Source: Acidobacteriota bacterium
GTDB taxonomy: Bacteria > Acidobacteriota > UBA6911
Reading direction: 5' to 3'
NCBI GenBank assembly: GCA_016929335.1
Contig: JAFGIY010000003.1
Location: 1-64,000, forward strand
Length of the DNA stretch: 64,000 nt
Shown in pieces: positions 1-34,330 of this stretch (its first letter is position 1; each line of letters opens with the position of its first letter). The notes under the pieces were generated by a model. That model was not told where the DNA came from, made no database searches, and was given only the letters and a program-made list of their open reading frames with translations. Position numbers and translations under genes: made by a program.

Positions 1-10
1 CGAAGGCTGG
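1..10 (-). repeat. Edge fragment of the CCA-adjacent repeat after tRNA-Gly
   Basis: On the minus strand the ten bases after the tRNA-Gly discriminator read CCAGCCTTCG, identical to the start of the repeat that follows tRNA-Tyr (244-281) and tmRNA (12315-12362). The window edge cuts the copy, so its length is unknown. Confidence 0.6.
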
Positions 11-83
11 AGCGGGAGACGGGACTCGAACCCGCGACCAATAGCTTGGAAGGCTATGACTCTGCCAACTGAGTTACTCCCGC
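11..83 (-). tRNA. tRNA-Gly (anticodon TCC)
   Basis: Read on the minus strand this is a 73-nt cloverleaf. The 7-bp acceptor stem is GCGGGAG/CTCCCGC, the discriminator is T, the T-arm is GCGGGTTCGAGTCCCGT-like, and the anticodon loop CTTCCAA gives TCC, which reads Gly. CCA is encoded directly after it (plus positions 8-10) and is followed at once by GCCTTCG, the start of the repeat also seen after tRNA-Tyr and tmRNA. Confidence 0.95.
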
Positions 84-86
84 TCT

Positions 87-240
87 TTTTGCTGTCCGCC
101 TTCGCCAAGGCTTCGGCGGACAAGTCCTCTTTTGCCCAACTCCCGCAGGAAAGCCCTTCCTTGCCCAACTCCGGCGGACAGATCCGCCCTTATCCAGATT
201 CGGCGGACCAACCCGCTTTTGCTCAACTGCGGCGCACAAG
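87..240 (-). repeat. Degenerate ~29-bp tandem repeats between tRNA-Tyr and tRNA-Gly
   Basis: On the minus strand the spacer contains about four imperfect units of 29-30 bp. Each has a purine-rich GGCAAAAG-like start, then GTCCGCCG (or a variant), then a GAGTTG/GAATCTG-like end. The last unit ends in an imperfect palindrome, GTCCGCCGAAGCC/GGCGAAGGCGGAC, at about 94-122. The short reading frames across it are repeat translations, not genes. Confidence 0.65.
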
Positions 241-243
241 CTA

Positions 244-281
244 TCGAATGGCTCGCCAGCCGAAGCTTCAGCGAAGGCTGG
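244..281 (-). repeat. Half-palindrome repeat abutting the CCA of tRNA-Tyr
   Basis: Directly after the tRNA-Tyr discriminator the minus strand reads CCA, GCCTTCGCTGAAGCTTCGGC, TGGCGAGCC. This matches the left arm, loop and first bases of the right arm of the tmRNA-linked palindrome at 12315-12362, with two base changes up to the loop. It then diverges, so only about half of the palindrome is left. Confidence 0.75.
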
Positions 282-366
282 TGGAGAGGGGAGGATTCGA
301 ACCTCCGTAGTGCCGAAACACGCTGGGTTTACAGCCCAGTGCCATTAACCGCTCGACCACCTCTCC
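282..366 (-). tRNA. tRNA-Tyr (anticodon GTA)
   Basis: An 85-nt class II tRNA with a long variable arm. Acceptor GGAGAGG pairs with CCTCTCC, the discriminator is A, and the anticodon loop CTGTAAA gives GTA (Tyr). CCA is encoded at plus positions 279-281 and is shared with the start of the adjoining repeat. Confidence 0.95.
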
Positions 367-541
367 TGATATATTCAAGGCATGGAAACTTTCTGCAATG
401 CTTTGGTCATCCGCCAAAGTGGAGTCCAGGGAGCTTACAGATGAGCCGGAACCGGCTCAGTTAATAGCTTCTAAAGAACCTGCCGAATCTTGGGCCCGCC
501 TATCCCAAAGCCGGCTATTGCTTCACATTCCTCTTTTCTGG

Positions 542-614
542 AGCTGGCGAGAGGATTTGAACCCCCGACCCGCTGATTACAAATCAGCTGCTCTACCAGC
601 TGAGCTACGCCAGC
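542..614 (-). tRNA. tRNA-Thr (anticodon TGT)
   Basis: A 73-nt cloverleaf on the minus strand. Acceptor GCTGGCG pairs with CGCCAGC, the discriminator is T, and the anticodon loop TTTGTAA gives TGT (Thr). CCA is encoded at 539-541. Unlike the Gly and Tyr genes it is not followed by the GCCTTCG repeat. Confidence 0.95.
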
Positions 615-11964: not shown

Positions 11965-12315
11965 GGGGGTGAACTGGATTCGACGGGGGTCAAGAGGCAG
12001 TAGAGGCATGCCGAGTTGTCCGCGACTCGTAAAAATCGTGGAAATAAACATAATTGCTGACGAACAGTTAGCTCTGGCTGCTTAAGCAGTCACGTCCCGC
12101 CGCTCTTGCCTACGGGGGCGGACCGGGGCGTCACATAGTAGGCTAGGCTGGGATTCGAGCTCTGGGATCTTTAGCCGAAACCAAAGGGGCTAGCGGGTGC
12201 GCGCTCCTGCCAATCCGAACGTTGCGCTCGCGAAACTTAAACGGATTGGATACGCATGTAGGCTCTATTCGCTGAAGGCTTTCGGACGCGGGTTCGATTC
12301 CCGCCACCTCCACCA
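11965..12315 (+). ncRNA. ssrA: Transfer-messenger RNA (tmRNA)
   Basis: 351 nt. The 5' end GGGGGTGAACTGGATTCGAC and the 3' end with T-arm GGGTTCGATTCCCGCC and encoded CCA form the alanine-tRNA-like domain (acceptor GGGGGTG/CACCTCC). The tag reading frame in the body ends ADEQLALAA followed by TAA (12078-12080). Upstream in frame it reads VEINII, and the exact resume codon is uncertain. It is one-piece and not permuted. It rescues stalled ribosomes together with SmpB, which is not in this window. Its CCA touches the palindromic repeat that follows. Confidence 0.97.
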
Positions 12316-12362
12316 GCCTTCGCTAAAGCTCCGGCTGGCAAGCCGGAGCTTTAGCGAAGGCT
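12315..12362. repeat. Perfect 22-bp palindrome abutting tmRNA CCA
   Basis: Left arm 12315-12336 and right arm 12341-12362 are exact reverse complements with a 4-base loop GGCA. The left arm begins with the last A of the tmRNA CCA and continues GCCTTCGCTAAAGCT. The same start follows the CCA of tRNA-Tyr and tRNA-Gly. There is no T-run after the stem, so a simple intrinsic terminator is unlikely. Further downstream (12363-12410) are more GTCCGCCG-type repeat pieces like those between tRNA-Tyr and tRNA-Gly. Confidence 0.85.
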
Positions 12363-12431
12363 GCCCGCCGTAGTCCGCCGAAGCAAAGCGGATGCGGACG
12401 AAGGAGGGCGCCAACCTCAGCTGACTCCGAA

Positions 12432-12548
12432 ATGAAATATGTCTACCTCCTTCAAAGCATCTCTAACCCCAAACAACGCTACATCGGACCCACGAAAATG
12501 ACCGGAGAATGGTCCGCTAATCCCTATTGTCACAACCTTCCCAGTTGA
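12432..12548 (+). pseudogene. Remnant of a GIY-YIG endonuclease gene (UPF0213 type)
   Basis: The frame opens MKYVYLLQSISNPKQRYIG, a good match to the start of small GIY-YIG nucleases: YVYLL is the GIY-equivalent strand and RYIG the YIG-equivalent. It then loses similarity and stops after 38 codons, against about 80-95 in intact members. The catalytic Arg helix and Glu are missing. It lies about 70 bp after the tmRNA-linked palindrome, and its end overlaps the -35 box of the vapBC promoter. Confidence 0.7.
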
Positions 12549-18670: not shown

Positions 18671-18797
18671 CGGCTTGTGCGTCTGGCGGTAGAATGAAGT
18701 GATCCAAATTGCTCGGCTAGGCTTGCAACCGAAAACCGGCTACGTCCTGGCCGGCCGCCGGGCATCACAAAAAGGACAGTCATAAGGACGGTGACAA

Positions 18798-34245: not shown

Positions 34246-34257
34246 TGATGGGATTTG

Positions 34258-34299
34258 GTAGCGCTACAGGGAATCGAACCCTGGTTTGATGGCTGAGAA
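34258..34299 (+). repeat. attR: 42-bp repeat inside tRNA-Glu
   Basis: Identical to 18388-18429. It covers the tRNA-Glu gene from CCA base C74 through the T-arm to the anticodon loop (CTC, plus-strand GAG). Integration therefore rebuilt a complete tRNA gene at this end, as usual for integrases of this class. Confidence 0.93.
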
Positions 34300-34330
34300 C
34301 CACCCGTCCTAGCCCCTAGACGATAGCGCC
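34259..34330 (-). tRNA. tRNA-Glu (anticodon CTC), integration target
   Basis: 72-nt cloverleaf on the minus strand: acceptor GGCGCTA with TAGCGCT (one G-U pair), D-arm ATCGTCTAGGGGCTAGGACG, anticodon loop TTCTCAG giving CTC (Glu), T-arm CAGGGTTCGATTCCCTG. CCA is encoded at 34256-34258. It stays complete after integration. Confidence 0.95.

Follow-up and report, generated by a model that had tools for sequence, protein, structure and literature searches.

Palindromes directly behind tRNA and tmRNA genes look like the worn front ends of a small element encoding a GIY-YIG nuclease

What is the sequence that follows three different RNA genes of one genome without a gap, and how might it have come to lie there? 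In the 64-kb window analysed here, which is the whole of the stretch presented and begins at base 1 of contig C83 in the 6.5-Mb draft genome of the host, the heptamer GCCTTCG stands directly after the CCA of tmRNA, tRNA-Tyr and tRNA-Gly and is absent after tRNA-Thr and tRNA-Glu. These junctions had been noticed in a sequence-only reading of the same DNA, and the gene ends called by ARAGORN bear them out. An Rfam scan of the window at gathering score gave nothing beyond tRNA, tmRNA and one int-alpA RNA (18710-18775; 36.7 bits, gathering score 35.8). The features that concern us are listed below; genomes are labelled G (G000 being the host), host contigs C and loci L.

1-7, minus strand: first 7 nt of hairpin 1 at tRNA-Gly
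8-83, minus strand: tRNA-Gly (tcc), putative third target (ARAGORN)
94-121, minus strand: hairpin-2 type palindrome GTCCGCCGAAGCCTTGGCGAAGGCGGAC
256-281, minus strand: hairpin 1 remnant at tRNA-Tyr, CCAGCC-TTCGCTGAAGCTTC-GGCTGG, CCA included
279-366, minus strand: tRNA-Tyr (gta), putative second target (ARAGORN)
539-614, minus strand: tRNA-Thr (ARAGORN)
11965-12315, plus strand: tmRNA (ssrA), putative target, with its encoded CCA at 12313-12315 (ARAGORN; Rfam RF00023, 196.1 bits)
12314-12363, plus strand: hairpin 1 of the tmRNA copy, with perfect 23-bp arms (12314-12336 and 12341-12363) and a 4-nt loop
12364-12409, plus strand: hairpin 2 of the tmRNA copy (CCCGCCGTAG...GAAGGAGGGC), imperfect
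12432-12548, plus strand: decayed GIY-YIG ORF of the tmRNA copy, 38 codons to a stop
34256-34330, minus strand: tRNA-Glu (ARAGORN)

The palindrome behind the tmRNA is perfect, as first described, but it consists of 23-bp arms at 12314-12363 rather than of 22 bp at 12313-12362, and it starts within the gene, its outermost pairs being formed with the C and A of the tmRNA CCA. Folding of 12313-12362 gives -45.4 kcal/mol (z -8.35). The tRNA-Tyr copy, described earlier as a left arm plus loop, is instead a short hairpin, of whose element the palindrome at 94-121 is probably the rest. At tRNA-Gly the GCCTTCG does abut the CCA, but the copy is just 7 nt long (positions 1-7) because the contig begins there. 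Downstream of the two tmRNA hairpins, the first 19 codons of the decayed ORF (12432-12488) are homologous to intact copies, as judged from an alignment to G003, a relative in the host's genus; taken alone, the decayed ORF has no Pfam match.

The words that make up these hairpins are poor guides to their distribution. GCCTTCG occurs 25 times in the window against 14.3 +/- 4.1 in shuffled sequence, AGCCTTCGCT has 25 hits in the host genome against 34 for its reversed control, the 15-mer singled out in the sequence-only reading has 11 hits at up to three mismatches against 7.7 by chance, and the hairpin core at the same tolerance has 23 hits in the host genome against 18 for the reversed control. 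Short words being common by chance, the signal lies in position and structure and not in the word. A repeat of high copy number was rejected, as AGCCTTCGCT is without over-representation in the host genome.

At zero or one mismatch the hairpin core gives 9 hits in 6 places, or 7 places with the contig-cut Gly copy included (C83:98 being merged with the Tyr copy 140 nt away). Five of the seven are at a CCA, so that copies lying elsewhere, a majority of which was to count against a link with tRNA ends, are the minority; these other two are on C71 and C246. Counted by gene, the hairpin is found at 5 of 49 host RNA genes, namely the tmRNA and 4 of 48 tRNA matches (Tyr, Gly-tcc, Phe-gaa and Gly-ccc), with four more tRNA flanks (Asn, one Asp and two Leu) cut by contig ends; tRNA-Ser(cga) of the host is without such a hairpin. 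Remnants of a small ORF lie downstream of the hairpins of tRNA-Phe and tmRNA, and the tRNA-Phe remnant alone matches Pfam GIY-YIG with 27.2 bits (cut-off 22.6). No intact nuclease ORF was found in the host genome. Six host contigs (C83, C160, C82, C245, C145 and C50) end in or near a tRNA gene, as if repeats had broken the assembly, and some copies may therefore be missing. Of the two places away from a CCA, C71:6891-6910 (L074) is an isolated copy (ACCAGCC...GGCTGGT) between apparent rplE and rpsN genes, and C246:10020-10149 (L078) is a compound intergenic palindrome with several hairpin-type units, away from any tRNA.

Relatives of the host carry what the host appears to have lost. Intact hairpins followed by a GIY-YIG ORF of 80-83 residues stand behind tmRNA in G008 and G023, behind tRNA-Ser(cga) in G003 and behind tRNA-Ala in G026. 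The tmRNA copy of the window and the tRNA-Ser copy of G003 are identical in 145 of 179 columns, from the CCA through both hairpins to codon 19. On this comparison the window palindromes look like the worn front (5') end of a nuclease-coding element of ~370 bases. Where intact, the element consists of hairpin 1, hairpin 2 and a sole gene for a GIY-YIG nuclease mostly of 79-80 residues, with a median length of 370 bp (322-786 bp in 53 copies). Within the host's class there are 11 matches in 9 of 38 genomes, with a tRNA or tmRNA directly upstream of 7.

To place the element more widely, 84,980 species genomes were scanned with an alignment of five intact-copy proteins and the best 80 of at least 557 relatives were kept, selected by protein similarity alone; the titles of their records name 13 bacterial phyla, and many are metagenome bins. 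An intact same-strand tRNA or tmRNA, as called by ARAGORN, lies upstream in 59 of these best 80 loci, 79-543 bases before the ORF. A contig-cut tmRNA end is found in three more (L140, L172 and L190, with L140 resting on 8 nt at a contig start), and a 3' fragment of a tRNA or tmRNA ending in CCA in 13, which were judged by eye and measure 17-30 nt in nine cases and 7-12 nt in four (L185, L208, L215 and L217). Three loci are too near a contig end to read (L170, L196 and L210), and two are away from tRNA ends (L161 and L169). Rfam searches of 20 loci lacking an ARAGORN tRNA returned tmRNA matches alone and no other RNA gene as a target. The partners in 58 intact cases are of 12 kinds: tmRNA 16, Ala 10, Ser 8, Tyr 7, Val 5, Leu 5, Pro 2 and five singletons, so that tmRNA is apparently preferred. 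That the element targets the tRNA 3' end, as the sequence-only reading proposed, is strongly supported by these loci, 75 of the best 80 nuclease relatives standing behind intact, contig-cut or fragmentary ends. Its companion suggestion, an element born from a tRNA, is not supported, as copies behind different tRNAs share no tRNA sequence before the CCA.

The association is also seen genome by genome. Twenty-four genomes hold 10 further strong copies, with a tRNA upstream of 9 (in one case the copy is the second member of a tandem, at a distance of 1.3 kb) and a tmRNA fragment upstream of the tenth, whereas of 16 controls, which the analyst chose from the 28 weak hits to other GIY-YIG ORFs there, 2 lie within 500 nt of a tRNA, one of these two with a hairpin. 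Copy number is low, at 1-5 strong matches per genome in these 24. Genome searches used a protein alignment (A3) built from 42 of the 80 loci, L146 and L179 having been excluded because of internal stops. In each genome only the top 18-19 first-look candidates were scored, and the prevalence figures are accordingly lower bounds. The element is present in at least 16 of 297 genomes of the host's own phylum, in 21 copies, of which 13 follow an intact tRNA or tmRNA and 2 a fragment, with 2 at contig edges and 4 elsewhere (L346, L357, L364 and L365). An alphaproteobacterial sample (the class of Brevundimonas), centred on a genome that carries the element, has it in at least 20 of 289 genomes; 17 of its 22 copies follow an intact gene, 4 follow short CTCCGCCA-type remnants recognised by eye, and 1 is at a contig edge. 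Some loci occur in more than one of the 80-locus and whole-genome sets. Three loci lie on viral contigs, none behind an intact tRNA and two behind what by eye is a 3' remnant of tmRNA or tRNA-Ser, and a single query protein, compared at E<=1e-5 with 72,556 plasmid and 50,697 phage records, had no match there.

A GC-rich hairpin directly behind an RNA gene might be no more than the gene's ordinary terminator, with the ORF a chance neighbour, and in G003 and G005 the same place behind the tmRNA is indeed occupied by what reads as an ordinary terminator. There, however, the hairpin described here is absent, and it is present in just 4 of 30 tmRNA flanks read, which refutes the notion of a normal terminator common to relatives. 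Hairpin 1 is followed by CCCGCCG in the tmRNA copy and by CGAGCCA in the Tyr copy, with no T-run in either; the relatives have hairpin 2 and an ORF of near-constant length next; most host tRNAs are without the hairpin; and, among the GIY-YIG ORFs examined, linkage to tRNAs is specific to one nuclease clade. We regard the terminator explanation as very improbable, and return to the hairpins as parts of an element.

The architecture of the front end is conserved in pairing. Upstream of the ORF, 53 of 58 copies contain the reverse complement of the 8 nt after the CCA, at a tolerance of one mismatch, and in 42 of these 53 that arm continues with TG, which is complementary to the CA of the tRNA; the nine-base arm including that CA has its reverse complement in 49 of 58 copies against 2.1% in shuffled sequence. 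L178 was excluded from the arm tests because CCA is absent at its called tRNA end. Hairpin 1 covaries. Among the 40 of 58 copies that could be placed by the hairpin-2 anchor (the other 18 being excluded), the first base after the CCA is paired in 37, as GC in 13, TA in 14, CG in 7, AT in 1 and wobbles in 2, against a mean of 17.3 and a maximum of 27 in 1000 shuffles. Arm position 7 is paired in 36 of 40 (shuffled mean 24.3, maximum 31), and at arm positions other than 3 and 7 pairing never exceeds the highest of 1000 shuffles, pairs 1-2 being fixed by the anchor's requirement for TG. Six apparently misplaced copies (L149, L153, L159, L200, L203 and L206) are counted in this test.

Both boundaries can be read from copies behind different tRNAs. 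Two copies in G064, one behind tRNA-Ala(ggc) and one behind tRNA-Val(cac), agree at 20 of 20 bases after the CCA, at 196 of 231 at the ORF end and at 14 of 60 past the stop; given this shared stretch, the element begins with the base next to the CCA and ends with the stop codon. ORF length is nearly constant: of 72 ORFs, 44 have 80 codons and 17 have 79. Right after the stop the sequence information of these 72 ORFs falls to ~0.03 bit. No target-site duplication was seen at the copies compared.

The product is a nuclease of minimal size. Two intact copies score 59.3 and 56.5 bits against PF01541 (cut-off 22.6), and in 42 aligned proteins (80 columns) Y5, Y17, G19, R27, H31 and E63 are invariant, which we take to be the GIY-YIG active site. 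A predicted structural model (pLDDT 96.2) has HIGLE, SLX1 and UPF0213 as its nearest solved folds (three matches, E<=0.001), to which sequence comparison also points, and no NCBIfam model matches any of the 42 members. SLX1 enzymes are structure-specific endonucleases that cut branched DNA, and the predicted SLX1-like fold would suit an enzyme acting on hairpins or cruciforms. A separate DNA-binding domain is absent; the catalytic domain fills the whole ~80-residue protein, in which there is little room for sequence recognition. With pN below pS in 38 of 38 ORF pairs (identity >=72%) and dN/dS at or below 0.14 in 31 of 36 computable pairs, the substitution patterns indicate that the ORFs are under purifying selection. 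In a tree of 75 of the 80 proteins phylum requires 19 changes (minimum 12, shuffled 38.5) and tRNA partner 29, the latter a raw count with no shuffled reference. Since the tree is fairly phylum-like, with few supported forks, spread between phyla may be rare.

Occupied and empty versions of the same site, whose comparison had been suggested from the outset, are found in Brevundimonas, where a site between tRNA-Ala and trhO occurs in filled, worn and empty states. It is filled in B. lenta (L301), has hairpin remnants in L302, L305, L308 and L319, and is empty in L303 and L309. Altogether 28 Brevundimonas loci were read: 1 filled, 4 remnant, 2 empty behind tRNA-Ala and 1 with a 1.3-kb insert. 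In 9 of the rest a tRNA-Arg lies a short gap upstream, without a hairpin, and in 11 no same-strand tRNA is within reach. Empty and filled sites are ~80% identical, and the insertion is therefore not defined to the base. In the filled or worn loci L301, L305 and L308 the start codon of trhO is apparently a GTG overlapping or derived from the last bases of the element (TGGTGA), and in the empty sites it is ATG.

At a tRNA-Tyr site in Bradyrhizobium one flank is preceded by two element types, and also by versions of 119-125 bases with both hairpins and no ORF. An empty version of this site was not found in the 24 loci read, of which the 10 with tRNA-Tyr all show the hairpin and 14 are without the tRNA.

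Larger insertions at the same tmRNA end raise the question of whether the unit is merely passive cargo of tRNA-integrating islands, marking the att sites of tyrosine-integrase elements. In G082 a 548-residue ORF whose translation reads as a phage-type tyrosine integrase comes after an intact tmRNA, and ~9.7 kb further on there is a second tmRNA 3' end, directly followed by the hairpin and the GIY-YIG ORF; in G162 the intact tmRNA and the displaced 3' end are ~33 kb apart, and in G163, G164 and G165 the tmRNA is on another contig than the element. These islands, together with the 13 of 80 loci behind a tRNA 3' fragment, are what a cargo would be expected to leave. From the duplicated tmRNA ends of G082 and G162, however, the islands seem to have moved a resident element, along with the old tmRNA 3' end, to their far side, and in the 59 of 80 loci with an intact tRNA the element lies directly behind it. 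We consider passive carriage by islands highly unlikely.

Since hairpin 1 includes the CA of the tRNA in its pairing, a role in RNA processing is the most serious rival to a mobile element. The ORF could encode a host or domesticated RNase that frees the tRNA from this hairpin, as a regulator or addiction module. The conserved CA pairing, the coincidence of the left boundary with the exact tRNA 3' end and the purifying selection on the ORF would all agree with such a function, and one paper mentions a prokaryotic GIY-YIG protein of the Slx1 cluster fused to a TrmH-like tRNA methylase (PMC1564403). Against this, five RNA genes of the host, the tmRNA among them, are followed by hairpins although its genome yielded no intact ORF; presence is patchy (16/297 and 20/289 genomes); the tRNA partners are unrelated; and worn and empty sites exist. 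We judge an RNase function unlikely, if somewhat less so than the terminator or the island cargo.

The explanation that we favour, and hold to be likely, is that the window palindromes are decayed copies of a minimal selfish, homing-like mobile element directed to the tRNA 3' end. The unit encodes one nuclease and reaches a precise site, which tRNA and tmRNA have in common and whose occupation does the tRNA no harm; this argues for a selfish element. Its mobility we infer by comparing sequences, from the anatomy, the boundaries, the covariation of hairpin 1, selection, presence and absence, and related copies behind different tRNAs. In the scheme we propose, the SLX1-like nuclease would cut tRNA genes at their 3' end, guided by a sequence or a foldable structure common to tRNAs and tmRNA (the T-arm, acceptor strand and CCA), and the break would be repaired by copying the element from another copy in the fashion of homing, with hairpin 1 perhaps marking its left end. 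Landing right behind the CCA would keep the tRNA intact, at a site available in every cell, and the tRNA promoter could serve the ORF. Copies would later lose the ORF and survive as hairpins, as those of the window may have done.

Several known systems share parts of this design, but of each kind considered the element lacks a defining feature that was examined. Free-standing GIY-YIG homing endonucleases of the phage Seg type are likewise single intergenic nuclease genes with this catalytic domain, present or absent at one site, but the element described here encodes ~80 residues with no added DNA-binding domain, occurs at 12 kinds of tRNA or tmRNA (58 copies) rather than at one allele, has conserved hairpins in front, is nearest in fold to SLX1, HIGLE and UPF0213, and is absent from the phage records searched. 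REP/RAYT and IS200/IS605 systems also combine stem-loop DNA with a small cognate nuclease and leave ORF-less hairpin copies; theirs is a Y1 HUH enzyme and not a GIY-YIG nuclease, and the present element differs further in its low copy number and its tRNA 3' ends. Integrative islands and prophages at tRNA ends use the conserved 3' end and leave the tRNA intact, but such islands carry a copy of the 3' part of the tRNA, whereas the element, at ~370 bp, is without integrase or att repeat and starts after the CCA; the duplication in G082 belongs to another island. Single-domain GIY-YIG nucleases of the SLX1/UPF0213 kind share the fold and catalytic residues, and the literature searched on them gave no link to tRNA ends or mobility. 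An archaeal palindrome also lies at a fixed distance behind tRNA genes, but 10 bp from the tRNA end; in the available parts of its source it is suggested to be a maturation signal and no nuclease is mentioned.

The GIY-YIG domain, palindromes and tRNA-end sites are thus each known; their combination in one element was not found described in the literature searched, which included the available parts of PMC5217627 and PMC1564403 and lay mostly outside subscription journals. If our reading is right, this would be among the smallest autonomous mobile elements, with one 80-residue enzyme and two hairpins, in 5-7% of genomes (lower bounds from two samples), and would account for a set of palindromes and of small annotated 'GIY-YIG nuclease' genes. 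It would open the questions of how a minimal nuclease locates the tRNA 3' end, how tRNA maturation tolerates a hairpin that pairs with the CCA, and whether a lone GIY-YIG nuclease moves stem-loop DNA. Such a nuclease might also serve as a compact tool for inserting DNA behind tRNA genes without harm to them. More tentatively, as a possibility that we rate somewhat below an even chance, single-domain SLX1-like GIY-YIG nucleases may form a class of enzymes, so far not recognised as such, that mobilise stem-loop DNA, with a different palindrome for every branch; the branch described here would be directed to tRNA and tmRNA 3' ends, and others would drive repeats such as TCATTCCGGGGC.

Other palindromes lie, by eye, less than ~200 nt upstream of several single-domain GIY-YIG ORFs that are not at tRNAs (among L257-L270), for example TCATTCCGGGGC...CCCGGAATC, GTCATTGCGAGGAGCG...GAAGCAATC and CATCCTGAGGAGC...GAAGGATGAGG. 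The TCATTCCGGGGC repeat stands before the GIY-YIG ORFs of L264 and L268, and with at most one mismatch it occurs 256 times in G063 (Bradyrhizobium) and 115 times in G060, against 11 times in each for the reversed control.
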